DNA from: a virus
DNA length: 45,755 nt
Strand: one strand, 5' to 3'
Virus record (IMG/VR): IMGVR_UViG_3300042878_001948
Span: 1-45,755 of that record
The translations under genes were made by a program, and so were the position numbers. Below, one piece after another: positions 4,445 through 38,697 of this stretch. Positions within the stretch are counted from its first letter, which is position 1; each line of letters starts with the position of its first letter. A model generated the notes under the pieces. The model saw only the letters and a list, made by a program, of their open reading frames with translations, did no database searches and was not told the DNA's origin.

Positions 4445-4450
4445 AAGTCT

Positions 4451-4478: not shown

Positions 4479-4487
4479 TAAATTCTT

Positions 4488-4670: not shown

Positions 4671-4672
4671 AG

Positions 4673-5562: not shown

Positions 5563-5566
5563 ATCA

Positions 5567-6481: not shown

Positions 6482-6771
6482 GATTTCCACTCTGTATTAT
6501 TTTTCTTTTGGTCAACCAATGTGCCTTGAGTGTGCTTTTTTATAATACAATCAACGAATCTTTGAGCACTTTCATCAACACTGCCGCTAAACTTCATTGT
6601 GCCATCATTCCAATCCAACTTGCCAATCACATTTTTACCATCATAAAAAGTCATGGTCAAATCGGCCTTAAAGGTAGTAGTTAAATAACTATCTTTATTT
6701 AGCCAATCAAATGTCAGTTGTGCCGGTGCAAAAAAGTCAAACTGTAATTGTGTTTCAGTTGTTGTATTCAT
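6478..6771 (-). CDS. Hypothetical protein, 97 aa
   Basis: Starting at MNTTTETQLQFDFFAPAQLTF, this protein looks beta-rich (alternating hydrophobic and polar residues) with a polar tail ending NNTEWKS. The ATG at 6771 limits the overlap with the upstream glycosyltransferase to 17 nt; an upstream ATG at 6798 is possible. It sits between two glycosyltransferases and overlaps the downstream one, so translation is probably coupled. No domain recognised. Confidence 0.6.
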   Translation of the reverse strand: MNTTTETQLQFDFFAPAQLTFDWLNKDSYLTTTFKADLTMTFYDGKNVIGKLDWNDGTMKFSGSVDESAQRFVDCIIKKHTQGTLVDQKKNNTEWKS

Positions 6772-7549: not shown

Positions 7550-7980
7550 TTGTCGCCCTCCACGTCTTCTTTATCTCCGTTGAATACTTTCATTTGAATA
7601 CTTTTACCAGTCATTTCTGCCTCTTCAATATAAATCTTTTTGGTTGGTTCAGTAACCTCAAAGAAGTGTTCTAGTTCTTCTGTGCTATCAGCAAACATCA
7701 TAAATGCGTCTTCTTTGCCACTTTCTTTACATTTGAATAGTTTATATTCAGTGGTTGTTATGATAGTATATCCAGCATCATGTCTGAATACTTCTCCCAA
7801 CCAAATCATTTCTATGAGAATCATAATAGAATTTGATGCGGTCTTTAACATGTCAGACCATAGCGTTTCATTCATCCATTGTGCTTTTAGTGCAAGCAAT
7901 CCGCTCAATGCAAGTGGAAAGCCAATAATGGCAAAAGCGCACATCAGATAATAATACCAACCTTTTTTCTGTGTAGTCAT
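7546..7980 (-). CDS. Small inner-membrane protein, two TM segments
   Basis: 144 residues. Residues ~10-32 (YLMCAFAIIGFPLALSGLLAL) and ~45-62 (TASNSIMILIEMIWLGEVF) are hydrophobic and likely span the membrane; the remaining ~80 residues form an acidic soluble domain (TEYKLFKCKESGKEDAF... to the C-terminus). No recognised family. It lies between the helicase and a glycosyltransferase and overlaps the latter by four bases. It could anchor a glycosyltransferase or act at the host membrane; both are guesses. Confidence 0.65.
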   Translation of the reverse strand: MTTQKKGWYYYLMCAFAIIGFPLALSGLLALKAQWMNETLWSDMLKTASNSIMILIEMIWLGEVFRHDAGYTIITTTEYKLFKCKESGKEDAFMMFADSTEELEHFFEVTEPTKKIYIEEAEMTGKSIQMKVFNGDKEDVEGDK

Positions 7981-7986
7981 AATTTA

Positions 7987-9339: not shown

Positions 9340-9351
9340 AGTAGAAAAGAT

Positions 9352-9379
9352 ACTATGAACATTTTTACCAAACAGTCAA
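9352..9379 (-). promoter_or_regulatory. Sigma70-like promoter of the helicase gene
   Basis: Minus strand TTGACT (9374-9379), 16 nt, CATAGT (9352-9357). The start codon at 9339 is about six bases from the predicted transcript start. The -35 box lies in an inverted repeat (9374-9398). Confidence 0.6.
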
Positions 9380-9398
9380 ACTATAATAAGTTTTGACT
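9374..9398. repeat. Inverted repeat overlapping the helicase promoter -35
   Basis: AGTCAAA (9374-9380) and TTTGACT (9392-9398) are perfect inverted arms separated by 11 nt. One arm is the -35 box of the helicase promoter; the other is an outward-facing TTTGACT on the plus strand. It may be an operator. The surrounding 9340-9442 interval holds no gene. Confidence 0.4.
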
Positions 9399-9442
9399 TT
9401 CAAACTTCTCATATAAACAGAATAACATTTTAACTATATCAA

Positions 9443-10309
9443 TTAAGTTATTATACCTATGATCTGGTCGGCTCGTTTTTCTGCTCTGTGATATAAATTA
9501 ATTTTTTTATAGATATTTTCAGATAAAACATTTCTTATATACTCGTTGTTTATCAAATATTTAATTTTTTCCGCAGCATCTTGTTCCGTATCATAATACA
9601 GTATGTCTTTACCATCAACAAACATGTCATATATTCCAGTTGCGGTGGATATGCGGTTTGTCACAACTGCCAGTTTACATCCACCCGCCTCAAATATTCT
9701 TCTAGTTATTTCATCCCATCTTGCGTATTGAAATGCAATAGTACCGCCATTGTAAAATTCGTTGTTTTCTTCAGCCAATGTTTTACGGTATATAAAATTC
9801 GAACCAAGGGCCGATGAAAGATATTTGGTGTATTTCTCGACACCGCAAGTAGTCACGCATATGTTTGATCTTGGTATAGTGCTATTGTGTTCAAACAGAT
9901 ATTCATCCCCCCAATGAGTTATCCAATGTGCATTTATTCCCATTTCAATATATTTCTTTTGGCACCTTATGTCCGGAGTATATATAGCGTCTGCAATTTT
10001 AGCTCGTTCAATTCCTTGACCAAATGTTTGCGGTTCATCGCCCATCTCAAGTACAATCTTTTTGTGACTGATTGTTCTCAATTTTTTCAACTGTTCATCA
10101 AGTGATTTTGAATTCCATGGCCAACTCACCCATATGAAATCGTAATTATTTGATACTATAAAAAATTTTTCCAGATCGCAATTCGCAGCATCGAATTTGA
10201 ATACATCAACACTGTGTCCAAGTCTTTTAAAAGCAAACGATAATCCAAGGGGGCAATTCCAATATTCTTCCACCGTTGAATCGCCATGCCATAACATTGC
10301 TATTTTCAT
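9443..10309 (-). CDS. GT-B glycosyltransferase (CgeB-like, family 1-type)
   Basis: 288 residues. The N-terminus (KIAMLWHGDSTVEEYWNCPL) begins a Rossmann-like domain; the C-terminal part QYARWDEITRRIFEAGGCKL, MFVDGKDILYYDTEQDAAEK fits the Glyco_trans_1_2 domain of CgeB-like GT-B enzymes. These transfer sugars from nucleotide sugars without a metal-binding DXD. It overlaps the next upstream gene, an epimerase, by four bases and is the last gene of the dideoxysugar-type operon. Acceptor unknown. Confidence 0.8.
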   Translation of the reverse strand: MKIAMLWHGDSTVEEYWNCPLGLSFAFKRLGHSVDVFKFDAANCDLEKFFIVSNNYDFIWVSWPWNSKSLDEQLKKLRTISHKKIVLEMGDEPQTFGQGIERAKIADAIYTPDIRCQKKYIEMGINAHWITHWGDEYLFEHNSTIPRSNICVTTCGVEKYTKYLSSALGSNFIYRKTLAEENNEFYNGGTIAFQYARWDEITRRIFEAGGCKLAVVTNRISTATGIYDMFVDGKDILYYDTEQDAAEKIKYLINNEYIRNVLSENIYKKINLYHRAEKRADQIIGIIT

Positions 10310-11130
10310 AAATTTTCAATTATTTTGTCCACAGCTTGAAAAGTAGTATATTTTTGTTTAAATCCCAAATTTCTTAATTTCTCACTGTCCATAAAAAAAT
10401 TTGGGCATTGTACTATTTGATGAAACTCGGGAGCATCAATGTATGTTATCTTGGTATTAGAATTTGTTTTTCTGCGAACATAATCAACAATGTCATTTAT
10501 ACTAGTACTTTCTTCTCCTCCAATATTATATATTTCATTAAGTTTACCCTTCTTAATTACCATATTGGTGGCGGTACACACGTCTTCCACATGAAGAAAA
10601 TTTCTATAATTATCTCCGTGGTATAAATTAATTGGCTCTCCGCGCACAACATTTCCAACTAGATACTCCAATGCATTTTTTTTGGTTCCGGCTTTGGCAT
10701 CTCCTCCAATAACATTGCACAATCTTAATATGCGATAATTCTTTTTAAAAGTTTTACAATAAGATTCTACAAGATCTTCCGCTGTCTTTTTTGTTATAGA
10801 ATAAAATCCCTTTGGATTGCAATAATCCGTTTCTTTGGCCGGATTATATTTTCCATATCCACTCCCGTAAACGAACCAACTTGATACAAAGTTGAATGTT
10901 CCATTTACATTTGGTAATACATCCACCAATTTATTGAGATTGGTATTTATATCCTTGTGAAGATCATCTAGAACATGATAATTATGAGTAGTACTGATTA
11001 GATACAACACATCTTTCATATCCTCGATTTTGTTTTCCTCTCTTGGTATAATTACAGTCTTATTTGGATACATTCTTGCGAAATTTCCACCAACAAATCC
11101 ACTTCCTCCAAATATGCTTAGTTTTTCCAT
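10306..11130 (-). CDS. Extended SDR (NAD-dependent epimerase/reductase)
   Basis: 274 residues with a nucleotide-binding GGSGFVG (8-14), the active-site region FVSSWFVYG (81-89), and the catalytic YxxxK at Tyr110/Lys114 (GFYSITKKTAEDL). Downstream signatures RLCNVIG and NFLHVEDV are typical of nucleotide-sugar epimerases, dehydratases and reductases. It lies directly downstream of the RfbH-like 3-dehydrase and overlaps it by 13 nt, so reduction or epimerisation of a 3,6-dideoxy-4-ketohexose (abequose, paratose or tyvelose type) is a reasonable inference. Substrate not proven. Confidence 0.85.
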   Translation of the reverse strand: MEKLSIFGGSGFVGGNFARMYPNKTVIIPREENKIEDMKDVLYLISTTHNYHVLDDLHKDINTNLNKLVDVLPNVNGTFNFVSSWFVYGSGYGKYNPAKETDYCNPKGFYSITKKTAEDLVESYCKTFKKNYRILRLCNVIGGDAKAGTKKNALEYLVGNVVRGEPINLYHGDNYRNFLHVEDVCTATNMVIKKGKLNEIYNIGGEESTSINDIVDYVRRKTNSNTKITYIDAPEFHQIVQCPNFFMDSEKLRNLGFKQKYTTFQAVDKIIENL

Positions 11131-12428
11131 GTTGACATTATATTGTTGATATGATCAAGATTTTCCGCAGATATGGTTGGCGCACATCCGACAAAGAATA
11201 CCAAATCCAATACTTTATTGGCGTCTGGATATTTACGATAGTCATCCAAATGCTTGTATCCATTATGCATCAACAGATTTCCCGCAAAATAGTTTCTAGT
11301 TTGAATACCGTTGGATTCTAGAAAAGTCACAAGCCTATGTTTAATTTCTCGGTTTTTGCAAATAACTGGTACGCCAAATGGAACCCACGTCGTTTCAGAA
11401 TATACTGCCGGAAAGCTCAAATCGTTTACATATGTTTGAAGTATGTTTTGTATCATTATGCGATTGTCATTTCTCAATTGGCATATACTATCAAGCTTTT
11501 TAAGCTGCTCCAATCCAATCGCAGCCTGCAAGTCTAATGGCTTTAAATTCCAACCAATACGATTGAATACATACTTATGATCAATGATCAATTCTGGAAA
11601 CTCGGGAATCCAATTTGAAAATCTCTTGTTGCATGTACCATTGCATAAAAGATTGGCAGCACCTACGCAATAACAGTCTCTTCCCCAAGTTCCAAAGCTT
11701 CTTGCCAAATCGACGATTTCTTGAATGTCCGAGGATACCATACCACCTTCCAATGTTGTGATTTCATGCGCTGGATAAAAGGAACAACTGGATACAACTG
11801 CGTACTCATTAAGATATTTGCCTCTCCACTTAGTTCCCAAAGAATCGCAGTTATCCAACAACAGTTTGATATTATGTTTCTTTGTGATTGCAATCAATTC
11901 ATCCATATTTGGAGGATTGCCAAGAACGGGACTGAGGAATATAGCTTTAGTTTTATCTGTTATTTTTTCTTCAATTTTTGATAGATCAAAGTTCAATGTT
12001 GACCACTCAATATCAACGAATGAAGGTTTTAAGTCATTATGTACGATTGCAGATACTGTGGTTGGAAATCCGACCGATGATACAATAATTTCGTCCCCAT
12101 CCTGCCATCCAAAATATTCTCTACAAGCTGCTATCAGCAAAAGATTGGCACTTGATCCGCTGTTACAAAAAAAGGAAAACTTATTATTGATATGTTTTCC
12201 AAATTCTCTTTCAAAACGAGCGCATACTTCTCCCGAAGAAGACCATTTACCAAATAGCAAGGTGTGAATTGCCGCGACTATTTCGGTATTATCAAAGTAA
12301 GGTCCGGAATAATACACTTTTTTCTTATCCTTGGCTGCAAGGTTGTGTGCGAACTTTGGAATATGGCCATGCTTTTTTGCCATTTCCTCCACGAATTTAG
12401 ATATTTCTATGCGTTGATCATTGTCCAT
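11118..12428 (-). CDS. rfbH: CDP-4-keto-6-deoxyglucose 3-dehydrase (E1/RfbH type)
   Basis: A 436-residue DegT/DnrJ/EryC1-fold PLP enzyme in which the usual PLP-binding Lys is His221 (SFYPAHEITTLEGG). Cys194, Cys252, Cys254 and Cys262 give the spacing C-x57-C-x1-C-x7-C, the [2Fe-2S] ligand pattern of E1. His replacing Lys plus this cluster separates E1/RfbH from sugar aminotransferases. E1 removes the 3-hydroxyl from CDP-4-keto-6-deoxyglucose in 3,6-dideoxyhexose biosynthesis and needs a reductase partner (E3), not seen here and perhaps supplied by the host. It sits in an operon with an SDR and glycosyltransferases. Length matches the family (about 437). Confidence 0.93.
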   Translation of the reverse strand: MDNDQRIEISKFVEEMAKKHGHIPKFAHNLAAKDKKKVYYSGPYFDNTEIVAAIHTLLFGKWSSSGEVCARFEREFGKHINNKFSFFCNSGSSANLLLIAACREYFGWQDGDEIIVSSVGFPTTVSAIVHNDLKPSFVDIEWSTLNFDLSKIEEKITDKTKAIFLSPVLGNPPNMDELIAITKKHNIKLLLDNCDSLGTKWRGKYLNEYAVVSSCSFYPAHEITTLEGGMVSSDIQEIVDLARSFGTWGRDCYCVGAANLLCNGTCNKRFSNWIPEFPELIIDHKYVFNRIGWNLKPLDLQAAIGLEQLKKLDSICQLRNDNRIMIQNILQTYVNDLSFPAVYSETTWVPFGVPVICKNREIKHRLVTFLESNGIQTRNYFAGNLLMHNGYKHLDDYRKYPDANKVLDLVFFVGCAPTISAENLDHINNIMSTWKN

Positions 12429-12430
12429 AA

Positions 12431-13159
12431 TTAATTGTAATTGCAGGTTTTATTGAATATTTCTTCCCAATTTATCACCGGACTCATATATTGAGGCTCG
12501 CAGTGTGTAGAATAACCAGGTAAAGGATTTATCAGTGTTCTACCTTCAGTCGCAAATTTAGCGAATTTATCGAAGTCTCTTGTAAGTCCACCCACAACAT
12601 CGCAGTATTTAACGTGAGTCGAATAATCTCGTCGCAGCGTCTTGCCAAGACACGCATATGTGTTCGTTGTGTTAGGAATTGTCTTCCAGTGAACGCTTGG
12701 CGTAACCCCAACTTTGGCTAATAGTTCCTCGTACATGGGAAAAAAATATTTATCATTGTGATCATATAGCGTTATATAGTCTACGTCAATAAATTTAAAT
12801 CCCTCTTTTAAGATTTTTGCCCATCCGATATTATGAAGATAGTCATCTTCAACAAAATATATTATGTCATCATCAGCAAAGTTTGATTCTGTCACGGTTT
12901 TTAGTAAATTAAGAAAACTCTTGCCATCGTTGCCACCATCTTTTTCTACGAGCTTGAACTTACCATTATACTTTTGGTTTTCTAAAAAATGTCCGCTACC
13001 GGATACAATGCCATCAAAACACACCGTGAGTTCACAGTCTTCATCCATTGTATTGAGGAAACTGTTGAAACATCCTTCTCTGGTAAAAAATGATGGTCTC
13101 GGTTTATTGGCCGAATTGCTGGAAAACTTACAGTGTCTTGCGAATATCTTAATTTTCAT
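12431..13159 (-). CDS. GT-A-like glycosyltransferase
   Basis: 242 residues. DDDIIYFVEDDYLHNIGWAK contains an EDD motif at the DXD position, preceded by a GGNDGKSFLNLLK segment that resembles the donor-binding region of GT2-like enzymes. The late CEPQYMSPVINW may complete the site. It is two bases from rfbH and overlaps its upstream gene by four, so it is cotranscribed. Family assignment is weaker than for the other GTs here; donor and acceptor unknown. Confidence 0.7.
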   Translation of the reverse strand: MKIKIFARHCKFSSNSANKPRPSFFTREGCFNSFLNTMDEDCELTVCFDGIVSGSGHFLENQKYNGKFKLVEKDGGNDGKSFLNLLKTVTESNFADDDIIYFVEDDYLHNIGWAKILKEGFKFIDVDYITLYDHNDKYFFPMYEELLAKVGVTPSVHWKTIPNTTNTYACLGKTLRRDYSTHVKYCDVVGGLTRDFDKFAKFATEGRTLINPLPGYSTHCEPQYMSPVINWEEIFNKTCNYN

Positions 13160-13917
13160 TCTATTTTAATATTCAAATATGGATATACGGTTTTGTATTC
13201 AAATTTAAATATCATATCCTTGCCACGAAATGGTTCACTAAACTCTTTTTCAACTAGTGAAGACCAATCCTGATCCTTGTTGTGACTCCAGCAGCTTACT
13301 TTCTTCAACATAGCTTCTTTGGAACGAACCCAAGAATAATGATGTATGAATGGCTTACCGTTATATGTGACATTTCTGGCACGAAGATGGGATGGCACAT
13401 AATCAAACACACCAGAACGTTCGTGTGGATGCATTATGAATTGGTCGTCAGTGAATGTTCCTTTTTGTACTAGCGCAATTGAATCCTGCCATTCATTGCA
13501 TTGATATTTGAAATCCCTGAAATAAAAGTAATTTGACAGCTTATAGCTCACCAATGGATTGATTTGTTGTTCTGTCCACCACGCATTAAATTCATTTGGT
13601 ACAATGATTTCATCAGTATCCAAGAACATAAAATAATCGGTCTCTTCTGGTGCAAGCATTGTGCCAATCTTTCTTGAAATATTGCAATGCCATCTGGATG
13701 ATTCATTTTTATTATATTCAAATTCAACAAACTCGGCTTTTGAATTTTCACTAGCGGACTTCAATAATAACTCTTGATCTTGTTCAGTTCCATCGTGAAA
13801 ATGTGTGCAAAATGGTACAATTACTTTGTGCGAAACTTTCAACGCAGCATCAATGCACGGCTTAAGAAACATATAGTCATTTGTGCAATAATTGATTACC
13901 GTTGTGATATTTTTCAT
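13156..13917 (-). CDS. Family 2-like glycosyltransferase
   Basis: 253 residues; TVINYCTNDYMFLKPCIDAA start, then EETDYFMFLDTDEIIVPNEF with a DTDE metal motif, and a C-terminal FIHHYSWVRSKEAMLKKVSCW. The pattern resembles the GT2/GT92-like group in which a DxDE motif binds the nucleotide-sugar metal. Overlaps both neighbours by four bases. Acceptor unknown. Confidence 0.8.
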   Translation of the reverse strand: MKNITTVINYCTNDYMFLKPCIDAALKVSHKVIVPFCTHFHDGTEQDQELLLKSASENSKAEFVEFEYNKNESSRWHCNISRKIGTMLAPEETDYFMFLDTDEIIVPNEFNAWWTEQQINPLVSYKLSNYFYFRDFKYQCNEWQDSIALVQKGTFTDDQFIMHPHERSGVFDYVPSHLRARNVTYNGKPFIHHYSWVRSKEAMLKKVSCWSHNKDQDWSSLVEKEFSEPFRGKDMIFKFEYKTVYPYLNIKIE

Positions 13918-14855
13918 TTAATGAATACTTCTTTAAATTTGTTTATAACATTCTTTGGTGAGAACTTGATTGAATAACAGTCCCACTCTACATCCTTTAC
14001 ATACGGTTTGTCAATTTGTAATAAATAAGAAAGTAGTTCTTCTTTATTTTTATATTTCAAAGCCTTGTCACCAAGCATATCAATGTGTGCTCGCATATAC
14101 CACCAATATGGTGCGTCATATGTGAATACAGGTTTGTTGAATGATGAAAATTCTCCAATCGCCAATCCAAAAGTTTCTCCGTCCGAACGTGCGTGTATCA
14201 TAGCATCGCACGTGTTGATAAACTTGCTTTTATATGACAGTTCCGGTTGAAATGGTATGAACTTGGCACGAGGGTGATCAACGAATGGCTTTGTGTTCAA
14301 GAATATAGCCCACAAGTCCGACCGCTTGTTCAATGCTTCAATCACAGCCGCTTGAGCATCCGGTACATCAAATTGTTCATATCCACCCAATCTTCCGATC
14401 ACAAACGCATTTTTAGGTACACCTAAATCATTATGCAGAGTTTCATTTGTTTTTGGCAGATTTATGATATGAGGAACCCACAGTTCCTTTTTGAAATATT
14501 TTGATAACCATTCACTCACACCAGCATACACATCTCCATGTGGTTCATGCATCTGAAACACACAATGAATACCCGTTTTACAATTTGTTGGCGTCAGCTT
14601 ATCGTCTGTGCCATACTTTATCATATAAAACAAATCTATCTTTTCTTTGTCTATGATGTATGGAATTTCGGATGTTTCTTCATACAAAAAACAACCAAAC
14701 TCACCATATTTGTCCATTGGATGTGTGGACTTTTTTTTGGAACTCACAATAAACGGTTCATGACCAAGAATATCTCGCAAAGCCAATGAATAGTCATATG
14801 GCACAGTGCCACAACCTCTATGATCCAATTGATCTACATGTATTCCAATCTTCAT
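13914..14855 (-). CDS. GT-B glycosyltransferase, family 1/4 type
   Basis: 313 residues. The N-terminus KIGIHVDQLDHRGCGTVPYD resembles the acceptor-side GT-B domain; FVIGRLGGYEQFDVPDAQAA begins the C-terminal domain, and HARSDGETFGLAIGEFSSFN is the E-x7-E-like donor-binding signature. Overlaps neighbours on both sides by four bases. It probably transfers a hexose or derivative within the same glycan as its neighbours. Confidence 0.85.
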   Translation of the reverse strand: MKIGIHVDQLDHRGCGTVPYDYSLALRDILGHEPFIVSSKKKSTHPMDKYGEFGCFLYEETSEIPYIIDKEKIDLFYMIKYGTDDKLTPTNCKTGIHCVFQMHEPHGDVYAGVSEWLSKYFKKELWVPHIINLPKTNETLHNDLGVPKNAFVIGRLGGYEQFDVPDAQAAVIEALNKRSDLWAIFLNTKPFVDHPRAKFIPFQPELSYKSKFINTCDAMIHARSDGETFGLAIGEFSSFNKPVFTYDAPYWWYMRAHIDMLGDKALKYKNKEELLSYLLQIDKPYVKDVEWDCYSIKFSPKNVINKFKEVFIK

Positions 14856-15595
14856 AATACATTCCTTCGTAGTTTATATATTTCATCAGGCATTGTTGCT
14901 TTATCAAGTTTTTCCCAATCGTCCCATATAGCACTGATGAATCTACCAGATATTCCATCACTCTTTTCAGACAACAACCATTCAATCAAATTTAGCATAC
15001 GAGATGGGTCGTCTCCTTGCGTAGACTGCTTTAGTGCTTTGTTGTACTCATCTTCACCAATCACACTCGGTCCTGCTTTGAGTGCTCCATCAATGATGTT
15101 TGTTTTTATTGCACCCGGTGCCACCGCATTTATATCTAAGTTTTGTTCTTCCAATGACATGCTTTCGACCAAACGAACCACCGCCGTCTTTGCTGCTGCA
15201 TAAGCAGAGAAATATGGTCGACCATTGGCAGAACCTCCGCCAGCCAAACATACAATCTTTGCTCTGTGAGATTTGTCCATGATGGGATAAAACGCACGAA
15301 TGGCATTATATGTTCCATTTAGATTCACTGATATAGTTTCTGCCCAAGCTTCTGCATCCGTTTTAGATGTTTTTCCAACTTCACCCTGCGTTCCTGCACA
15401 TGTTATTAGTGCATGTATATTTATATCGGCATCAAGAAAATATCTGGCCCAATCTTCAACTTGTTCATAGTTGGTTACATCACATTTATACTCCGAAGAA
15501 CGCGATAATCCATACACAACATGTCCATTGGACACAAGTCTGTCTGTCAACATCTTGCCAATACCTGCACTATTACCAGTTATTACGATGTTCAT
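14852..15595 (-). CDS. Classical short-chain dehydrogenase/reductase
   Basis: 247 residues, the standard SDR length. NAD(P) motif TGNSAGIG (6-13), ITCAGTQG in place of NNAG (64-71), and the catalytic Tyr132/Lys136 in YAAAK, with a nearby Ser. The fold is clear; the substrate is not. Placed between a GT-B enzyme and a UDP-sugar-dehydrogenase-like protein, it may reduce a keto-sugar intermediate. It overlaps the next gene upstream by 23 nt. Confidence 0.87.
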   Translation of the reverse strand: MNIVITGNSAGIGKMLTDRLVSNGHVVYGLSRSSEYKCDVTNYEQVEDWARYFLDADINIHALITCAGTQGEVGKTSKTDAEAWAETISVNLNGTYNAIRAFYPIMDKSHRAKIVCLAGGGSANGRPYFSAYAAAKTAVVRLVESMSLEEQNLDINAVAPGAIKTNIIDGALKAGPSVIGEDEYNKALKQSTQGDDPSRMLNLIEWLLSEKSDGISGRFISAIWDDWEKLDKATMPDEIYKLRRNVL

Positions 15596-16361
15596 CGTTT
15601 GATTTCTTGATTGATGGAATTAGATTTAATCCTAAATTAAATTTTTTGTCAAGTTCAATTAATGTATGAATTTCTCTGCCCAGTGTATCATTTGTATATG
15701 GACCGCCCGGTTTTAGATACGACAACTGTCCAATGCGTTTATCTGATTGTAGTCCCATTGACACTTCATTTTTGTCTGCGTGTGCTGCCTCACATACCTC
15801 GGCAATTTCATTGATAAAAGTGATGCTCAAAGCCAAAAAAGAATTTATGGCGTGCTTGATCATTTCCGCTGACTCCAAACCAACAAAAATAACTGGCTTG
15901 TTCAATGGAGCAAACAAATCTTCTATGGTCGCCAGTCCATAATTCTTTCTGTCGTCTGCTTGAGTTAAAGCACTTCCATCCAAACCAACAATGATGCGAT
16001 CTGGGTTCATAAAGTCGTTGATTGCTTTGCCGCGACGAAGATTTTCTGGCGAACAAGCAATTCGTAATTTTGGAAATGCATAAACAAGTTCTCGACATGT
16101 GCCAACTGGAATTTGAGATGACACCAGTACAATTGTACCTTCACTGGTATTTGGTAAAATGTTTCTCAATCTGTCAACAACAACTTGTGAGCTTGGCTTT
16201 CCATCGGCATCAACAGGAGTATCATAACATATCCAAACAATCTTCGACGCTTGCAGCTTCTCAATGTCAGTTTCATCAACATTCACTTTATGAAATTGTT
16301 CCATACACGCTGCCGTGATATATGCCAAATGACCATGGCCAACAATTGTTATATTCATCAT
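15573..16361 (-). CDS. UDP-glucose/GDP-mannose dehydrogenase-like protein, truncated, no catalytic Cys
   Basis: 262 residues matching the N-terminal NAD domain (ITIVGHGHLAYITA) and central domain (MIKHAINSFLALSITFINEI, with Lys169 and Asn173 conserved) of UDPG/GDPM dehydrogenases. The family's active-site GGSCFPKD segment reads GGPYTNDTLGRE here, so the nucleophilic cysteine is replaced (Thr at about 226). The C-terminal UDP-binding domain is absent; family members exceed 400 residues. It cannot be a normal two-step dehydrogenase. It may be a one-step oxidoreductase, a regulatory relic or a structural partner. Start may be the second Met (16358). Confidence 0.78.
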   Translation of the reverse strand: MMNITIVGHGHLAYITAACMEQFHKVNVDETDIEKLQASKIVWICYDTPVDADGKPSSQVVVDRLRNILPNTSEGTIVLVSSQIPVGTCRELVYAFPKLRIACSPENLRRGKAINDFMNPDRIIVGLDGSALTQADDRKNYGLATIEDLFAPLNKPVIFVGLESAEMIKHAINSFLALSITFINEIAEVCEAAHADKNEVSMGLQSDKRIGQLSYLKPGGPYTNDTLGREIHTLIELDKKFNLGLNLIPSIKKSNDEHRNNW

Positions 16362-16362
16362 A

Positions 16363-17043
16363 TTATCCTTGTCCCATATTGGCTTTTATTGACCAATTTT
16401 TGTTGTAGAATTCATTTTGTGCTCTCTGCCTGTCAATCGTTTTGTCATGAATAATAGACCACTCAACTTCTTTAGGAAGATGTGCCACAATAGATGCTCC
16501 CACAATTGTTTCGTGTAATGGTTTTTGCCATTGTATTCTTAAACTATTTTTATAAATACGAGATTGATAATCTCCATTGCCCCAATTTATAATAGGCAAG
16601 TCACCAAACTCCGATAATTTTGATATATGCCATCCCCAGTTTCTGGCATCATTGTCTGTGGCACCTCGTACAATATTGACTCGTGGAACTCTATACAATT
16701 CAACCGTTGGATTTGACTCTAGCAACTCGTGCATATTATTCAATAGTGCCGGATACAAATATTCGTCGGCGTCACATTGTACAATATAATCACCCACACA
16801 ACGCTTGCTGCCATAGTTCTTGTGCTCTGCAAAGTTTTTGTTTAGTGCATGTTGAACTACGGCGAACCCATAACTTTTTGCTTTGGCAAGAATTTTCTTT
16901 GTATCTTCGTTGTTTGAAAAATCGTCCAGTATAACAACTTCATCGTTTGGGGCAACAAAGTCTATATGAGTCTTGAGCTTCTCAATCAGTTGCAGAAGCT
17001 CAAGTGTCTCATTCTTGCAAGTTACTAAATAACTTATTTTCAT
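16363..17043 (-). CDS. Family 2 (GT-A) glycosyltransferase
   Basis: 226 residues with a clear GT2 layout: KISYLVTCKNETLELLQLI, DEVVILDDFSNNEDT, NKNFAEHKNYGSKRCVGDYI, then the metal motif CDADEYLYP. The order and the DADE motif match small GT2 enzymes such as lipopolysaccharide core transferases. Its ATG overlaps the stop of the upstream GT by four bases; it lies 1 nt from the next gene. Acceptor unknown. Confidence 0.88.
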   Translation of the reverse strand: MKISYLVTCKNETLELLQLIEKLKTHIDFVAPNDEVVILDDFSNNEDTKKILAKAKSYGFAVVQHALNKNFAEHKNYGSKRCVGDYIVQCDADEYLYPALLNNMHELLESNPTVELYRVPRVNIVRGATDNDARNWGWHISKLSEFGDLPIINWGNGDYQSRIYKNSLRIQWQKPLHETIVGASIVAHLPKEVEWSIIHDKTIDRQRAQNEFYNKNWSIKANMGQG

Positions 17044-18347
17044 CCTGCGACTGGTACTGTTGGTGTAATTTTCTTGAACTTTGGAAGAGTAATTGCCACT
17101 TTCTTTTCAAACGCTGGCAAATTCTTTTCCAATACTTCAATCAATTTCTTACCGGCTTCTTCGAGATTAAATCTCTCATTATTTTGAATACGCAGCTTTT
17201 CTGACTTTGGAACATAGTTTATATAATTTTCGTATATATCTTCCAGCTTTTGAGCAGCAATGCTGTAATTGGCGTTGAACCATTGGGATTCTTTGATTAA
17301 CCAATCATTGCATGCACTTGGAGGAATATTGACTAGTGTACCAGGTAGAAGATTTGCCAAATTTTCGGGCAAGAAATCTATGTGTCCACTCCAATTTGTA
17401 GTGAGAAGCGGCTTGCCACTCAAAGTTGCTTCCAACAAAGGACGCCCAAATCCTTCACCATGTGTGAGACTGGCGTGCGCTTTTATTTTTGGATGATTAT
17501 ATAGTCTATTCAATTCGACCGGTGTAAGATCACCATGGATCAAATATATGTTTGGTAGATTTCCAGACAATGTAGATCTAATATCATTTATTTTCTTTAA
17601 TATTTCAGTCTTATCTACCTTTGAGAATGTTGCTCCACTTGTTTTGAGTATCAATGCGGGCGGATTATTTTTATTTTTAAACACCTCGCTAAATATCTTT
17701 ATAAGCATCCCAATATCTTTTCTATCCGCGCCAATATCACCTTGCAACCAATGTCCGACGAACAAATAACAAAATGTCTCAGGTATTGACTCAAGTGCCA
17801 AATCAATATCTTTAGATGGCTCTGATGTTTTTTTGTAAATATTGGTATCCACTCCTTCAAATACAACTTCAATTGGTTTGTTCAACTGAAGCTTGTCGTT
17901 CATACCTGTTTTATCATCTCGTCGATCATATATTGTTTTAATGAAAACCTCTTTAGAAAAAACAGAAGGAACAATGTTAAGATTCATTCTATTTAATCCC
18001 TCAATCCATTCCGCTCTTGGTGCGGTCGATTCTATTCCGGCTGTAATTCCGATGTTATATTTTCCCCGAGGCTGAAATTCGTTGGGTATTGATACCTGAA
18101 TAAATAATTCCGGTTGCGATGTAAGGTTGGTAGTAAGTATTTTACTTTTAATTTCTTTAACCATCGGTCGAGTTTCGTCATCAAGCATTGTGTTTGGACA
18201 AACCCCCCAACGCATAGGTACAATTTTGACATCAAACTTGTCCCACTTGATGATGTCGGACACAATTGCAAAACAGTGATCTCCGTAACCACTACGAGAT
18301 GCCACCGGTCCTTGGATTACACACACAGGTTTTATTTCATTACTCAT
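17040..18347 (-). CDS. GT-B glycosyltransferase (GT1/GT4 family)
   Basis: 435 residues. A C-terminal GT-B signature HASLTHGEGFGRPLLEATLS followed by GKPLLTTNWSGHIDFLPE is the family 4 donor-binding site (E-x7-E). A CVIQGPVASRSGYGDHCFAI start suits the acceptor domain. A basic, proline-rich tail (FEKKVAITLPKFKKITPTVP) follows. The first ATG is preceded only by AT-rich sequence, without Shine-Dalgarno. It is the second of two large GT-B enzymes. Confidence 0.9.
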   Translation of the reverse strand: MSNEIKPVCVIQGPVASRSGYGDHCFAIVSDIIKWDKFDVKIVPMRWGVCPNTMLDDETRPMVKEIKSKILTTNLTSQPELFIQVSIPNEFQPRGKYNIGITAGIESTAPRAEWIEGLNRMNLNIVPSVFSKEVFIKTIYDRRDDKTGMNDKLQLNKPIEVVFEGVDTNIYKKTSEPSKDIDLALESIPETFCYLFVGHWLQGDIGADRKDIGMLIKIFSEVFKNKNNPPALILKTSGATFSKVDKTEILKKINDIRSTLSGNLPNIYLIHGDLTPVELNRLYNHPKIKAHASLTHGEGFGRPLLEATLSGKPLLTTNWSGHIDFLPENLANLLPGTLVNIPPSACNDWLIKESQWFNANYSIAAQKLEDIYENYINYVPKSEKLRIQNNERFNLEEAGKKLIEVLEKNLPAFEKKVAITLPKFKKITPTVPVAG

Positions 18348-18373
18348 AGTTTTATATAACCTTTATTTTATTA

Positions 18374-18565
18374 TTACGGAGTTGTTCCAGCCGTATTCTG
18401 GGCTTCTTGTTCATCAATGATTGCTTCAATTTCATTTTCCACGTCATTGATGCGATCCTTAAAATCAACATTTGCCGATTTTTTCTCCTTGCGGATTTCA
18501 GCGAGCTGTTTTGTTAGCTCGTAAACTTTTGTCTTTGCTTCGTCTTTTGTTAGTGCTTTTGCCAT
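18374..18565 (-). CDS. Small coiled-coil protein, 63 aa
   Basis: From the ATG at 18565: MAKALTKDEAKTKVYELTKQ, continuing in a highly charged heptad pattern to EQEAQNTAGTTP. A long helix or coiled coil is expected. It lies between two large GT-B genes on the same strand, with 13 nt to the upstream gene. A longer in-frame extension would overlap that gene and is rejected. Role unknown; it could be an oligomerisation partner. Confidence 0.6.
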   Translation of the reverse strand: MAKALTKDEAKTKVYELTKQLAEIRKEKKSANVDFKDRINDVENEIEAIIDEQEAQNTAGTTP

Positions 18566-18578
18566 AATATTTTTTAGT

Positions 18579-20054
18579 TTAGTTGAATTTGTTTTTTGCT
18601 TCTGCTCTGTCAATCTTTGGTATAATGAAACCAAGGCTTTTGTTTGGCATGTTGTGCCCAACATATTCATCATGACGATGAATGTTGAAGCGTTCTCTGC
18701 CCTTCCAATTTGATAACATGTTGTCAATTCCAACTGCCATAGTTTCACACATTCTCTCGGAACTCAATCCTTCTGAACTCATGAGCCATTCACGTCCCTT
18801 TGATCCGCGATCTTTGCGATTGTCGCGACCAACTTCATACCAGTGCATCATTGCTACAGCAGCATCTTCCCAACGAGCATAATCTGCGAGAATATATGGT
18901 GTAGGAATACTTCCCTGTACCATTCTTGCACCGGGAAATATTGGTGTAACCCAAGTACCGTGATTCTTGTATCTACCATCCGCATTGGTTCCCCAGTTTG
19001 TATCAAACTCCACAGGATTACCATTTTCATCTGTAAATCCACATTGATCTTGCAAACCACCGGTTACTGTTACGATAATGGGTGTGCCAGCGGCGATACT
19101 TTCCGCCGTTCCAAGTCCAAATCCCTCATTATCAGAAAGATTGATTGTAACATCGGAAATATTATAGTACTGATTTAGACGATCTGGCATGATCTTGTCA
19201 GTACTGAAAACGACATCATAATCGGGACAGAAAGCGGTCTTACATGCCAACAAGTCGGTACCCGCATCATCCAGTGGAGGAGTATGCATAAACAATACAC
19301 ATTTGGATGCTTCTTCTTTGGTTAAATTATCACAGAAGTTTCTATAAGCAAGCATGATTGTGCTGGTTTGCTTGCGACGAATGTTACGATTGTTATAAAA
19401 AATAACATAGTTATAATCTTTCTTGAATAATTGCTTTTTTACCACATTCAGTTCTTTTAGTTCAGACTCACTTGTCAATGGTCTAAATGTCTTGGTGTTG
19501 ATGCCATGTGGCACATAAGACACCGTGGTTGGCTTGTTTAATACAGAACCCAAGACCCCGTCAACAATATTCTTGGTTTGTTTGCTGATGCAACCAATCC
19601 AATCGCAGCTTTCATAAAACGCACGATTATACATTGGATACGGTAAATCATCCCAAATACTATAATAACCAATTGGCATCTTTTGACGAAGTTCACGTTC
19701 CATCTGATACAACCAACCCCAAAAACGAGGATCGGTGAAATGCATCAAAGCGTCCGGCTTTTCAAGCTTGATGATTTCATTTAGAATTTCCGGATTGCCA
19801 TAGCCATCAACTGGATATAAACGAACATATGCATCGCTGATACCCGCGCCGATATTTACTGCACTGTCCAAATTCATTATCTTTCCCTTTTCAGGATGTT
19901 GAACAGAGCCAGCGATTTGAACCCAATTATACTTGCCAGCAAGTCCAGTTACAAACTCTCTTGCCATAGTGGCAATACCAGAATGCATTCTCAAGTCGTC
20001 GCAAAGTAGTATAATTTTCTTTCTGTCCTTTTGAGGAATATAACCATTATTCAT
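18579..20054 (-). CDS. Large GT-B glycosyltransferase (GT4 family)
   Basis: 491 residues. N-terminal KKIILLCDDLRMHSGIATMA with the conserved early Gly-rich loop, and a C-terminal INLSDNEGFGLGTAESIAAG followed by TPIIVTVTGGLQDQC, the E-x7-E donor site of family 4. Between them DYNVIFYNNRNIRRKQ opens the second Rossmann domain. It is the first gene of a long minus-strand sugar operon, driven by a promoter about 40 nt upstream. Confidence 0.9.
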   Translation of the reverse strand: MNNGYIPQKDRKKIILLCDDLRMHSGIATMAREFVTGLAGKYNWVQIAGSVQHPEKGKIMNLDSAVNIGAGISDAYVRLYPVDGYGNPEILNEIIKLEKPDALMHFTDPRFWGWLYQMERELRQKMPIGYYSIWDDLPYPMYNRAFYESCDWIGCISKQTKNIVDGVLGSVLNKPTTVSYVPHGINTKTFRPLTSESELKELNVVKKQLFKKDYNYVIFYNNRNIRRKQTSTIMLAYRNFCDNLTKEEASKCVLFMHTPPLDDAGTDLLACKTAFCPDYDVVFSTDKIMPDRLNQYYNISDVTINLSDNEGFGLGTAESIAAGTPIIVTVTGGLQDQCGFTDENGNPVEFDTNWGTNADGRYKNHGTWVTPIFPGARMVQGSIPTPYILADYARWEDAAVAMMHWYEVGRDNRKDRGSKGREWLMSSEGLSSERMCETMAVGIDNMLSNWKGRERFNIHRHDEYVGHNMPNKSLGFIIPKIDRAEAKNKFN

Positions 20055-25130: not shown

Positions 25131-25159
25131 ACTATGATGGCATTTTTATAAAAAGTCAA
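25131..25159 (-). promoter_or_regulatory. Sigma70-like promoter of the HNH gene
   Basis: Minus strand TTGACT (25154-25159), 17 nt, CATAGT (25131-25136), giving a short leader of about 9 nt. It starts inside the 3' end of the upstream small gene. Confidence 0.6.
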
Positions 25160-29698: not shown

Positions 29699-30090
29699 TG
29701 GTGGACGTGCGGGGAGTTGAACCCACGGTGCTATATAACATACATCTAAACATATACAAGCTTATCTCTTATAATACATCAATGTTTGGTAGAGCACCAC
29801 ATTGAAGTTGAAGTTTAGTATTTGATTTGTGCTACCATCTTCTATCTCGCACAAACGGCCAGATGATGAACGTTGTTGACTTGTTATCTGTGTCACAAGG
29901 ACAACGGACAGCCTATTTTATTAGGCTGCGACAAGTGTCTCGGCTCCGCTGTTCTTGCGAACAGAAAGAAAAGACACCTTTGCAAGATTTCTCTTAGCAT
30001 TTATGTTTTCCAACGGGTATTATACAGAGACATTAGACTCTGTGCTTGCGGCTTAAACCTACATTATAAAGTAGAATCCAGAACACGCCC
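29699..30090 (-). ncRNA. ssrA: tmRNA
   Basis: On the minus strand the RNA starts GGGCGTG TTCTGGATTC, the tmRNA 5' consensus, and ends with TTCAACT (T loop), CACGTCC, A, and an encoded CCA. GGGCGTG pairs with CACGTCC to form a 7-bp acceptor stem. Near 29910-29927 an AGCCTA/TAGGCT hairpin carries TAATAA in its loop, as helix H5 does in known tmRNAs; the reading frame before it ends ETLVAA. The tag may start at a GCT near 29998 (25 codons) or a GCA near 29983, longer than the 10-residue E. coli tag. The T-stem is imperfect (two mismatches), and the pseudoknots were not verified. tmRNA rescues stalled ribosomes. Confidence 0.85.
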
Positions 30091-30369: not shown

Positions 30370-30397
30370 TTGACTTTTTATATACTTACTCTAATAT
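30370..30397 (+). promoter_or_regulatory. Sigma70-like promoter, leaderless geometry
   Basis: TTGACT (30370-30375), 16 nt, TAATAT (30392-30397). The ATG at 30407 is 37 nt from the -35 box, about three bases from the predicted start. Drives the zinc-ribbon protein gene. Confidence 0.6.
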
Positions 30398-30406: not shown

Positions 30407-30685
30407 ATGAATGGTTTTACTCTATATAAAAATCCTTGCAGTTGCTGCTCTGAATCCATTGAGGATGCACGAGCCGAACTTGGTTTGCGTGTTTGCCTAC
30501 GTTGTGCAAAGCGTGGTGTATCACAATCAAAATATATGGGTGCTCAAGTATATGAGCACAAAACGGCTGGATTTCTGCAAGTTATGTTGCCAGACACATT
30601 TGCCGATTTTAAAGCCAAGACTAGTCGCAAAGGACAGTCCAGCACACTCAGAAATGTATTGGTTGGTGGAGGAAGATTACAATGA
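30407..30685 (+). CDS. Small zinc-ribbon protein, 92 aa
   Basis: 92 residues with two cysteine pairs, CSCC and CLRC, within the first 35 residues (LYKNPCSCCSESIEDARAEL...CLRCAK), likely a zinc-binding ribbon or knuckle. The C-terminal half (SQSKYMGAQVYEH...LRNVLVGGGRLQ) is basic. No specific family is recognised; DNA or RNA binding is plausible. A second ATG-frame at 30411 overlaps in another frame without cysteines and is rejected. The stop overlaps the next ATG (ATGA), so translation is coupled. Confidence 0.65.
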   Translation: MNGFTLYKNPCSCCSESIEDARAELGLRVCLRCAKRGVSQSKYMGAQVYEHKTAGFLQVMLPDTFADFKAKTSRKGQSSTLRNVLVGGGRLQ

Positions 30686-32998: not shown

Positions 32999-34489
32999 TT
33001 ATCTCATTACACTGAACTTTAGGTTTCTTATCAAAACGTCTTGGTCTATTCCATAAGCATAAAAATTCACATCGAATTTATACGCAACTGGAATTGCCTC
33101 GGAAATCTTACCCAATTGTCCAAGTGTCATCACAAATGTATGCGAAGCGTCTGGATTTGTTGTGCTTGGATCTCCGTCCATTATCTTGATTCTTCCTATA
33201 TATTTTTTACCAATATAAACTTTGATCGTGGCGCGGCCAGCATGAGATATTGGTCCGGTTTCAATTTCAAGCATTGATGTACCAGACTCAAGACCTTTAT
33301 TGATCAAGTTTTTCAGGCTTACAGAAGGCTCAATTGAAACACTCAACCCTGCTTTAGATACCGTCGATTTGTTTACAGGAATCGTAACAGACGCAGCATT
33401 CTTTAATGCTTTAGATGCACCTAGCTTCGCTTTGCTTGTTTGCGGTGCTTGATATGATACCGTTTGAGTCCATAGCATAATATCTTTGACCGATACGCTT
33501 ACGGGCGAACCATTCAAATCAGGGAACACATATCTTTGTTGACCCCATGGTCCATTTATATCTGGGATTGGATTCTTATACAACGAGAATATTCTATCCA
33601 AGTTGCAGTGGTGCATAAAGAAAATAGGATCGTCTGCGGCATAGCGCAGCGTACCCATTGTTCTGTTGCATCCATATCTTGTTCCAACCCAGTCGTGACC
33701 GTCATTGTGGGCACCGGCTTCAACCAATCCTTGACCAGTCTTACGATCAATACCGGGCTTTCCTCCAAATTGCTCCCAAGGAGTAGTCAGCATCAAGTCA
33801 ACATACTCTTTGCTCATATAACCAAGGCATTCGGCGACGTGATCTTTAGAATCTTGCCGCGTTTCGTTAGCGGGGTCTATTTTACTCTTTTCAAGTGTAG
33901 GACCACGGTTTCCATCGTATAATGCAAGATTATCAAAACCAAGATTGTCGCCAGCCACCATATTTTGTTGTGTTAGGTCATAGCCAAACAATGGACTTCC
34001 TAGCCCCTTCAACTCACGGAATTTTGTATTTGGCATTTCCTTGTGGTTGATCCAATCCCAATATGGAAAAGCAAACTTGTTACCATCAAGACCCAGTTGA
34101 TTCAAAGAATTTCCCAACAAGCGTTCGAGGAAAAATAAATAACCACGGTGCCAAGGAAGAAAATGATCACCCCAATGAACTTGTGGATGGTCAGCATCAA
34201 ACGCAGTGCAGTGTTTATAGTGTATGCGAGTAAATGTCTCCCAACTTGTTGGCGCTTCACGCGGAAGCTTGTTACGCATATAATCTACAGCCTTGCATAA
34301 AGTCTGTAATTCTTCGTCGGTTAAATCATAGAAACTCTTGCGAGTTCTCATTGGTTCATTGCCAAATACAAATTGTGGCACGTCGTTTGGATTGCAAAAT
34401 TCAACAGGCTTTTTTTCAGCCCCTTGCATGTTCAATCCAAGTAATCCCATTGCTCCTAAGCCTATAAAGCTTCTTCTTGATTGTTTCAT
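32999..34489 (-). CDS. Tyrosinase/polyphenol oxidase with Tat signal
   Basis: 496 residues. The start MKQSRRSFIGLGAMGLLGLN is a twin-arginine signal (SRRSFIG), so the protein should be exported folded. Copper A: His90 in IHYKHC (with Cys94), then QVHWGDHFLPWHRGYLFFLE with His105 and His114. Copper B: HNDGHDW (His261, His265) and PIFFMHHCNLDRIF (His293-294), the type-3 copper pattern of polyphenol oxidases. The C-terminal ~150 residues form a beta-rich domain. It oxidises phenols or catechols with oxygen. Such an enzyme in a phage is very unusual; it would act in the host periplasm or outside. Same terminator sequence on both sides suggests a cassette. Confidence 0.92.
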   Translation of the reverse strand: MKQSRRSFIGLGAMGLLGLNMQGAEKKPVEFCNPNDVPQFVFGNEPMRTRKSFYDLTDEELQTLCKAVDYMRNKLPREAPTSWETFTRIHYKHCTAFDADHPQVHWGDHFLPWHRGYLFFLERLLGNSLNQLGLDGNKFAFPYWDWINHKEMPNTKFRELKGLGSPLFGYDLTQQNMVAGDNLGFDNLALYDGNRGPTLEKSKIDPANETRQDSKDHVAECLGYMSKEYVDLMLTTPWEQFGGKPGIDRKTGQGLVEAGAHNDGHDWVGTRYGCNRTMGTLRYAADDPIFFMHHCNLDRIFSLYKNPIPDINGPWGQQRYVFPDLNGSPVSVSVKDIMLWTQTVSYQAPQTSKAKLGASKALKNAASVTIPVNKSTVSKAGLSVSIEPSVSLKNLINKGLESGTSMLEIETGPISHAGRATIKVYIGKKYIGRIKIMDGDPSTTNPDASHTFVMTLGQLGKISEAIPVAYKFDVNFYAYGIDQDVLIRNLKFSVMR

Positions 34490-36456: not shown

Positions 36457-37311
36457 TTAGAATTTTGATTTACGAAATCTTTTTGCTGCTGGTGATATAT
36501 ATTTTTTAATATCTGTTGTTGAGTTTGCTTTCAGAAATTCAATCATTTTTTGAAGCACTTGCATAAGCATTTTTACATCTTCTTTGGCATCATGCCAACC
36601 ATCAACTTTGACTCCCAACACTGCACCAAGTTTTCCAAGACTTGAACTATAACTTTTATATTTTGTCTTGGCAAGTAAACCATCCAATATAATTTTAACT
36701 TCTGGTATTGTTTCAAGTGCTTGCATTGCTGGTATAAAGAAAAATCGCGATATGTTTACTGTGTCTAATACCGGATATCTTTTTGTTGGCGGCAATCCAT
36801 TTAATTTTCTACGAGCCTCAATGAATTTCATATCAAATGTAGCATTGTGAGCAAGTATCACAACATTATCAAATTGACTCAAAAATTTTTCAAATTGAAT
36901 CAATGCTTCTTTTTCATCCAACTTTTCTGCATTTGGATTTTCATAACCAGTCATTTTTAATGCATCTCTTGGGTGCAAGTCTGGCTTGCCATATTTTTTC
37001 AATCTTCTATTCATTTCTTTATCCAACTGCTTTGCTTCTGTACTATTTGGATCATTCAATGCATTGTTCAAAGCGGAACCAATATTTACCTTTTTGGAAA
37101 ACTCTCCAATTTCTTTTAGTGAAGAACCTTCATATGCAATTGCAGCAATATGTGTAAGTTGAATATATGAAGTGTTTGGTTCTAATCCAACAGTTTCTGT
37201 ATCAAACAATATCATTGTTTTTCCATCAAACTGTAGAAACTTATCTAATACTTCTTTTATAGAATAAGAGTATAGTTTGGCTTCTGCTAATATGTCTTTC
37301 AGTTTGATCAC
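36457..37311 (-). CDS. DnaQ-like 3'-5' exonuclease with capsid-targeting-like N-terminus
   Basis: 284 residues. The exonuclease core shows ExoI ILFDTETVGLE, ExoII ILAHNATFDMKF and ExoIII GWHDAKEDVKML, i.e. the D-E-D-D set of the DnaQ/RNase T superfamily. Before it, MIKLKDILAEAKLYS matches the T4-type capsid-targeting form: a short basic helix ending in an I/L-x-E site (LAE/A). If so, the enzyme is packed into the head and cleaved by the prohead protease. The start is GTG, four bases after a TATATTTAT motif (37316-37324). The C-terminus is basic (KKYISPAAKRFRKSKF). Confidence 0.82.
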   Translation of the reverse strand: MIKLKDILAEAKLYSYSIKEVLDKFLQFDGKTMILFDTETVGLEPNTSYIQLTHIAAIAYEGSSLKEIGEFSKKVNIGSALNNALNDPNSTEAKQLDKEMNRRLKKYGKPDLHPRDALKMTGYENPNAEKLDEKEALIQFEKFLSQFDNVVILAHNATFDMKFIEARRKLNGLPPTKRYPVLDTVNISRFFFIPAMQALETIPEVKIILDGLLAKTKYKSYSSSLGKLGAVLGVKVDGWHDAKEDVKMLMQVLQKMIEFLKANSTTDIKKYISPAAKRFRKSKF

Positions 37312-37331
37312 ACTTATAAATATACGAGCAC

Positions 37332-37365
37332 AAAAAAAGAGGGTGGAATTTCCACCCTCTTTATG
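37332..37365. terminator. Terminator of the micropeptide unit
   Basis: Stem AA-AGAGGGTGGA / TCCACCCTCT-TT around ATT, with T-runs on both strands. Ends the small-peptide transcript from 37513 leftward. Confidence 0.7.
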
Positions 37366-37374
37366 ATTTTCTGT

Positions 37375-37449
37375 TTATTTTCTGTTATAATCGCCGTCCG
37401 CAATGACAATCAAGCCAAGAACAGCGTAACATGCTATAGCAATGAGCAT
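37375..37449 (-). CDS. Micropeptide, 24 aa, single TM helix
   Basis: ATG-initiated ORF encoding MLIAIACYAVLGLIVIADGD then YNRK. Hydrophobic first part and charged C-terminus suit a single membrane helix, resembling small regulators such as KdpF in layout only. It is the only ORF between a strong promoter (37520-37548) and its terminator, with a structured leader of ~64 nt and AGGA about ten bases before the ATG, one of few Shine-Dalgarno-like sites in the window. Confidence 0.5.
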   Translation of the reverse strand: MLIAIACYAVLGLIVIADGDYNRK

Positions 37450-37519
37450 AGTATGTATCCTTTCATATAAAAGTCACAGACCCGTAGGTTATATGACTAT
37501 TCTAACCCTAACAGACATA

Positions 37520-37548
37520 ACTATATGCTCGTTTTTATAAAAAGTCAA
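37520..37548 (-). promoter_or_regulatory. Sigma70-like promoter of the micropeptide
   Basis: Minus strand TTGACT (37543-37548), 17 nt, TATAGT (37520-37525); start near 37513. The leader contains TAGGGTTA/TAACCTA inverted arms. Confidence 0.65.
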
Positions 37549-37598
37549 GTGTCTGGTAGTAAATACTTATTATATAATGTTTTTATAAAGTTGAAGAA

Positions 37599-37675
37599 TG
37601 GTGCATCTGGTCAGATTCGAACTGACACTAAATGTGGGTAGAAACCACGTTGACTGTCCAATTGCCGACAGATGC
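37599..37675 (-). tRNA. tRNA-Arg (anticodon TCT)
   Basis: Minus strand. Acceptor GCATCTG pairs with CAGATGC, followed by A and encoded CCA. T-arm GTCAG-TTCGAAT-CTGAC is perfect. Anticodon loop TTTCTAC gives TCT. The D-arm is weak (GGC/GTC with a GG-containing loop) and the anticodon stem has one mismatch. It would read AGA codons, common in AT-rich phage genes. Confidence 0.8.
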
Positions 37676-37677
37676 AT

Positions 37678-38697
37678 TTATATATTACAAACAAACTCTT
37701 CAAATTTTCCTTCTGGAAAAGATTCTACAAATTCTATTTTTAAATTGAATGGATGATTGAGTCTTTTCAATACCAATTTCTTTACATCTTCAATTTTATC
37801 TTCTGGTACATTTCCTTGAATCTTCAATGTAATATCCGAATATGACTCTTGCACACATTGAAATCTTTTTATTGTATCACATGCATTTCTTATGGTATTG
37901 CTGCCAAACAGTGGCCACGCAGTTGTGCCATCTTGATACTTTATCATATTACGAATTCTACCAAGAACATTACGATTTATGGTTTGTAATTTTCTTCCAC
38001 AACTGCAAGTAGCAAACTCTCCTTTATCTCCAATTTTGTATCTCTTTATATATGGATGTGTGAGGTCTGTAACGAGGATGTCATTGTCATCTACGATTTC
38101 TATAACAATGTTCTCCATGATATGATATACATCCGGATTGTCTGGGCATTCTAATCCAATTGTACCAACTTCTTCTGAACTATAATTGGTTCCGCCTCTT
38201 TCACTTGTTGATTTTACATCTTTTAGTTTAGATGTATCAAGTGTGGCTATAATAGATGGATATGTATGCAAATAATCTGGTTGTATTCTATATAGCCAAC
38301 CTTGCAAGTCTCCGCGCGTTGGATGCATATAACACTTTCCAACTCCTTTTGTAAATAGATATGGATTTGTCGGCCAAGGTGTAATCTTTTCTTCTGTTAC
38401 AGGCGCATTGATTACAGCCAAATTTAATGATGTATCCCACTTTCTCCAAATTAGTTCACGCATATTGGTTGCCCAATACCATATATGCTGTGCCATATAC
38501 TTTTGAACAAATACTGGTTGACCGGTTGCTCCACTGGTGGATGAAAATGGTTTGGATTGGTCTATAGGTATTTTCTGCAACTCTTCTCTTGTCAATATAT
38601 TAAGTTTTGGTATCAATAACGATACATCACGCTCTTTGTATTGGTTTTCTTCCAATGCAGTTACTAACTTGTAAACTTCCAGATGAAAATCGGACAT
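37678..38697 (-). CDS. PaaK/CapK-like AMP-forming ligase
   Basis: 339 residues. The phosphate loop SSTSGATGQPV (52-62), YSSEEVGTIGLECP (the Y-x-SxE/G signature), VTDLTHPYIKRYKIGD and a C-terminal CSCGRKLQTI followed by GRIRNMI are the diagnostic pattern of the phenylacetate-CoA ligase/CapK family. These enzymes activate a carboxylate as AMP ester and usually pass it to CoA or another acceptor; CapK homologues occur in capsule loci. The protein is shorter than PaaK (about 430). It overlaps a methyltransferase-like gene by 34 nt. Substrate unknown. Very unusual in a phage. Confidence 0.85.
   Translation of the reverse strand: MSDFHLEVYKLVTALEENQYKERDVSLLIPKLNILTREELQKIPIDQSKPFSSTSGATGQPVFVQKYMAQHIWYWATNMRELIWRKWDTSLNLAVINAPVTEEKITPWPTNPYLFTKGVGKCYMHPTRGDLQGWLYRIQPDYLHTYPSIIATLDTSKLKDVKSTSERGGTNYSSEEVGTIGLECPDNPDVYHIMENIVIEIVDDNDILVTDLTHPYIKRYKIGDKGEFATCSCGRKLQTINRNVLGRIRNMIKYQDGTTAWPLFGSNTIRNACDTIKRFQCVQESYSDITLKIQGNVPEDKIEDVKKLVLKRLNHPFNLKIEFVESFPEGKFEEFVCNI

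Follow-up and report, generated by a model that had tools for sequence, protein, structure and literature searches.

A conserved single-gene unit for a probable membrane micropeptide, with a structured leader, in a T4-related phage group

It is difficult to tell a very short phage gene from chance. Do a promoter, a structured leader, a 24-codon hydrophobic ORF with a Shine-Dalgarno sequence and a terminator form a unit given over to one tiny membrane peptide, or is the RNA itself functional? The source is an IMG/VR virus record of 45,755 bases, which as a whole is called the window. The initial annotation had proposed all of these elements without naming a strand; all of them are present, on the minus strand, and the terminator lies slightly outside the interval first annotated. 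The features of the locus are as follows.

37675-37599: tRNA-Arg, upstream of the unit promoter.
37520-37548, minus strand: unit promoter TTGACT-17-TATAGT (-35 TTGACT at 37548-37543, -10 TATAGT at 37525-37520, spacer 17), with the extended motif TTGACTTTTTATA-N11-ATAGTTAT.
37472-37498, minus strand: leader hairpin H1, 10 pairs, loop UACG in the window, 3' end 22 bases before the ATG.
37458-37463, minus strand: Shine-Dalgarno sequence AAAGGA.
37429-37456, minus strand: likely hairpin H2 with the start codon inside; its covariation is weak.
37375-37449, minus strand: 24-codon hydrophobic ORF, ATG at 37449, peptide MLIAIACYAVLGLIVIADGDYNRK.
37336-37362, minus strand: terminator hairpin of 12 pairs, then a T run; terminator-like on the plus strand too.
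From 37311: exonuclease gene (RNase_T, E 2.5e-12), listed after the unit terminator.

We interpret the locus, with moderate confidence, as a single-gene transcription unit of a T4-related phage group, encoding a single-span membrane micropeptide of 23-28 residues whose translation is probably restrained. Judged from sequence comparison, conservation is the chief evidence that the unit is real. The first relatives came from searches with the two neighbouring genes of the unit, which gave 12 and 11 viral loci in which the unit was then read. A scan of viral contigs for the promoter -10 (ATAGTTAT) plus H1, with the ORF left unconstrained, yielded 15 stretches on 15 contigs, and the reading frame was intact in all 15. 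The case that would speak against a peptide, a hairpin kept with the frame lost, was looked for and was found in none of the 15. A scan with a peptide motif, with the leader left unconstrained, gave 19 IMG/VR contigs, including all 15 of the former scan, and every one encodes a 23-28 residue peptide of the family. A further 18 peptide-motif matches in a genome collection were read as chance, since none of them had a family-like peptide or the leader. With an E limit of 1, a model of the leader plus ORF matched 10 of 27 records: eight matches were strong (five already known), one was cut by a contig end and one was noise; the other 17 records are fragments. A profile scan with the exonuclease gave 18 loci, 11 on contigs already found and seven distant ones with short-stretch matches. 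Two candidate relatives were discarded, L190 (E 0.36) as noise and L065 as chance (a GC-rich stretch with another protein). Leader counts exclude L189 and L193, whose contigs stop 6 nt short of the ATG, and L011, whose leader is identical to that of L009. In searches of 50,697 phage records, blastn of 37250-37700 (E up to 1) found nothing over the unit and matched six records, all upstream of the promoter in the tRNA stretch or adjoining it; tblastn of the peptide (E up to 10), which has little power at 24 residues, found no match. The carriers form a group of bacterial viruses of freshwater type. One relative of 297 kb carries a T4-type portal (E 2.7e-72), and therefore the group is called T4-related.

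Coding was tested over codons 2-21 of nine distinct ORFs drawn from the 19 contigs and the window. The pooled nonsynonymous proportion was 0.256 and the synonymous one 0.640, giving a pN/pS of 0.40 that is uncorrected and has a synonymous value near saturation. Differences at codon positions 1, 2 and 3 were 0.30, 0.17 and 0.52, lowest at position 2. None of 5000 column shuffles, 59 of them stop-free, attained the observed mean amino-acid identity of 0.62; this identity is somewhat inflated because the ORFs were gathered with a motif requiring some conserved residues, and eight of the nine had already been found without it. M1, G12, L13, I16, D20 and Y21 are invariant in seven aligned peptides. 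The micropeptide thus belongs with phage small proteins (<100 aa), being encoded in a phage genome by a short ORF on which purifying selection acts, and the comparison shows a real gene of 23-28 residues with its own control elements. The strongest hydrophobic stretch of 16 residues has a mean Kyte-Doolittle value of 2.6-3.0 in eight orthologs and is short for a membrane helix. No charged residue stands before position 18. From this hydropathy, the peptide is probably membrane-bound with a single span, and its Asp-Tyr tail would be cytoplasmic. The proposal that the unit is dedicated to a tiny membrane peptide is well supported by the intact frames, the pN/pS and the shuffles, with membrane insertion predicted from hydropathy.

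Database profiles gave the peptide no firm identity. NCBIfam had no match for seven family members and Pfam had only PF15940 and PF12113, with one member each (E 0.087 and 0.21), in searches where very short queries score poorly. The PHROG family phrog_3765, of unknown function, matched three of seven members weakly (E 0.0041). This match was too weak to be accepted as an identity; the same model also matches nine of 14 control genomes at E up to 10, and the match may reflect composition only. The family is unnamed in Pfam, NCBIfam and Rfam, with a doubtful PHROG match; this statement covers those databases and the literature on small phage proteins, Stp, type I toxins and phage tyrosinase.

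The promoter had been called strong. TTGACT-17-TATAGT does exist in the window, but TTGACT is absent in the lineage of L008, L009 and L011, which keeps the -10. Scored by a simple consensus the promoter is at chance level (nine sites of the same grade in 1.8 kb vs 8.5 expected), whereas the longer motif TTGACTTNNTATAAAAA-N6-TATAGT, at up to three mismatches, has two sites in the window and none in 100 shuffles. A sister copy of the unit promoter lies at 25131-25159 on the minus strand, before an HNH-nuclease gene (25115-24459, minus; PF13395, E 4e-8), so that this gene (stretch 25159-24459, minus) and the micropeptide unit have the same rare promoter. By eye, the extended motif was seen in the 31 distinct upstream sequences of 64 viral loci with HNH relatives, with departures in, for example, L092 and L107. 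At up to three mismatches it was matched in all 27 records, and the backwards control gave one match in each of three records. On one strand of the 297-kb record, exact copies stand before the unit and before the HNH gene, separated by 12.4 kb; three further copies in that record have three mismatches. A matrix was built from 18 HNH promoters, among which was the HNH site of the window; that site scored 41.2 and the unit 31.8, against maxima of 2.7-6.3 in three base shuffles. Weaker sites of the window were 30370 (+) at 13.9, and 36070, 23003 and 19383 (+) at 9.7, 8.9 and 8.8.

The weaker copy at 30370 (+), the third of the family, precedes a cysteine-rich 92-codon ORF (30407-30685, +). The -10-like word ATAGTTAT is also found upstream of a tyrosinase gene (34523, minus) and of a 155-codon ORF (40811, minus). 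Another word, TATAATAAGTA, lies at 37574-37564 (minus), upstream of the unit promoter, and is present in L005, L007, L014, L028 and L032 as well. The window has five such sites at up to one mismatch vs 1.8 expected, and the word is possibly a second promoter.

The leader hairpin H1 is established. It was predicted from seven leaders and counted on eight, in which 95% of 80 cells were paired and four of the ten pairs changed on both sides. Its covariation score was 0.379 vs 0.180 in shuffles, none of 500 shuffles being as high, and it was at most 0.221 when the partners were slid. Two of five measures lay within the shuffles, namely pairs changed on both sides (77/500) and further pair types (283/500). 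Five H1 hairpins folded alone gave z values of -2.3 to -3.6. In the full transcript, the four outer pairs form with a probability of 0.89-0.97 in five orthologs but of only 0.26-0.56 in the window's lineage (the window, L005 and L032). A model of H1 alone had one strong match in seven of ten records, always in the unit, as it also did in the window; other matches were at E 0.2 or worse and mostly on the opposite strand of the same hairpin. Since strong matches are confined to the unit, H1 is, at this level of similarity, not an operator used across the genome. Folding of the whole transcript, terminator included, was stronger than that of any of 200 shuffles (z -4.75). Three terminator-like sites were observed vs 0.8 expected, two of them being both strands of the unit's one hairpin, and the relatives have a hairpin and T run at the terminator position with stems that differ from that of the window.

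H2 is likely, and with it a restraint on translation of the micropeptide mRNA. The AUG was unpaired with a probability of 0.00-0.12 in the eight orthologs with a leader, and the consensus fold of their alignment is itself a stem with the AUG inside. The Shine-Dalgarno sequence is partly accessible in the full transcript, AAGGA being unpaired at 0.66 in the window and at 0.23-0.68 over the eight orthologs. Pairing of H2 cells was 91.7%, vs at most 48.8% when slid; only two pairs change on both sides, and the covariation score was reached by 424 of 500 shuffles. When the peptide was held fixed and 300 random synonymous draws were made per ortholog, 2-15% hid the AUG equally well and 1-22% folded the start region as strongly. 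The unit ranked third of 47 window genes in local fold strength (-6.8 kcal/mol; fourth, -3.3) and only eighth of 47 in AUG accessibility, a ranking that left out one of 48 genes, too near the record end.

The surroundings of the unit vary. In four of seven loci the exonuclease is the gene listed next after the unit. L028 and L032 have a convergent gene there instead, L194 has a different gene, and the unit is unchanged in these three. Sequence comparison shows that the frame, H1 and the layout of promoter -10 and terminator are kept together while flanking genes change. The tyrosinase-domain gene of the window (32999-34489, minus; PF00264, E 1.7e-34) has a Tat-like start by eye, and its homologue (63%) lies directly upstream of the unit in L009. 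Rfam places a tmRNA at 29699-30090 (minus; 87 bits), which ARAGORN did not report. The ORFs of a run at 3266-20054 (minus) resemble, by eye, glycosyltransferases and sugar enzymes.

Other explanations of the locus have to be weighed against this evidence. Because the unit keeps its shape while its neighbours change, it is not the leader peptide of the exonuclease gene. Such an attenuator would account for a short ORF and terminator directly before that gene in the window, yet another next gene follows the unchanged unit in three of seven loci; with no constant same-strand gene downstream, we rejected this explanation as extremely improbable. Under another explanation the functional product is a small regulatory RNA with a short ORF inside it, which would suit a short transcript with its own promoter, terminator and covarying hairpin. 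The initial annotation had left room for a functional RNA and had suggested weighing codons against RNA structure in relatives. The RNA is structured, but the codons are under purifying selection while H1 also covaries, the frame is kept in 15 of 15 contigs, and no Rfam family is above threshold for the unit: only tRNA and tmRNA exceeded the gathering score, and at E up to 5 sraA reached 27.9 bits vs 56 needed. A regulatory RNA is thus very unlikely, and the simplest reading of the structure is control of peptide translation.

Type I toxins are hydrophobic, membrane-damaging peptides silenced by the structure of their mRNA together with an antisense or trans-acting RNA. The size, hydrophobicity and probably held start codon of our peptide fit a toxin-like peptide governed in this style. 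On the opposite strand, however, a consensus scan of eight orthologs put the antisense promoter at chance level, 21-92% of shuffles equalling it, and the best antisense site of the window was matched only in its near relatives; we consider a toxin rather unlikely. Small phage membrane proteins often act in lysis or assembly, and the peptide could be an accessory acting late in either process. Against this, the ORFs listed around the unit in seven loci, most of them without a family search, included none recognised as a lysis or structural gene, and the eight leaders contain no late element like TATAAATA (up to one mismatch), a result that counts if the phage uses such an element. A role in lysis or the virion is decidedly unlikely.

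We therefore return to the unit for a translationally restrained membrane micropeptide, which may operate as follows. A host polymerase of the sigma-70 type would transcribe a short mRNA ended by the terminator, and expression would probably be early. Ribosomes would bind the AAAGGA that lies between the two hairpins and would then have to open H2, so that few peptides would be made per mRNA. H1 may be a stabiliser of the mRNA or the site of a regulator. The peptide would enter the inner membrane of the host, leaving its Asp-Tyr tail on the cytoplasmic side, and might bind a host membrane protein, leading to cell take-over or to the exclusion of other phages. As a tentative extension, which we hold possible at a low probability, H1 and H2 would together form a switch: a phage or host factor on H1 would decide whether H2 opens, and so dose a peptide that retunes a host membrane protein, in a regulated take-over module tied to the HNH nuclease by its promoter. 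The ligand of H1 in such a switch may be a protein, a metabolite or a membrane-stress signal. The unit is small and defined enough for the study of minimal peptide action on a host membrane and of dose limiting, and G12, L13, I16, D20 and Y21 are named residues for mutational tests.

Among known systems, type I toxins such as TisB are short hydrophobic peptides with a structured mRNA. The unit is like them in both respects and unlike them in having no antisense promoter beyond chance. As a kind, a micropeptide gene is no surprise, given that more than 2 million small genes have been reported in phages (PMC11323111); the available part of that review, which omits anti-defence proteins, describes no such peptide. 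The other comparisons are with T4 as described in the available part of PMC3014915. There, T4 gene 43 has an operator hairpin about 40 bases before its start codon, with the loop UAAC; H1 is likewise a hairpin upstream of a start codon, but its loops are UACG, CUAG or UAUG, and the gene encodes a peptide, not a polymerase (PMC3014915). The T4 genes e, soc, 49 and I-TevI have the start codon and/or Shine-Dalgarno sequence in an RNA helix (PMC3014915), as the start codon of the unit is likely to be in H2. In gene e it is the longer early transcripts that carry the structure (PMC3014915); here the hairpin is preceded by the unit's own promoter, and the leader contains no late-promoter-like element. 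T4 Stp is an anti-restriction peptide of 26 residues, of which the N-terminal 18 are conserved (PMC3014915). Compared by description, Stp differs in that this part of the source does not describe it as a membrane peptide, the conserved residues here being G12, L13, I16, D20 and Y21 (PMC3014915). The likeness is that of a tiny peptide in a T4-type phage, and Stp acts on a host protein (PMC3014915).
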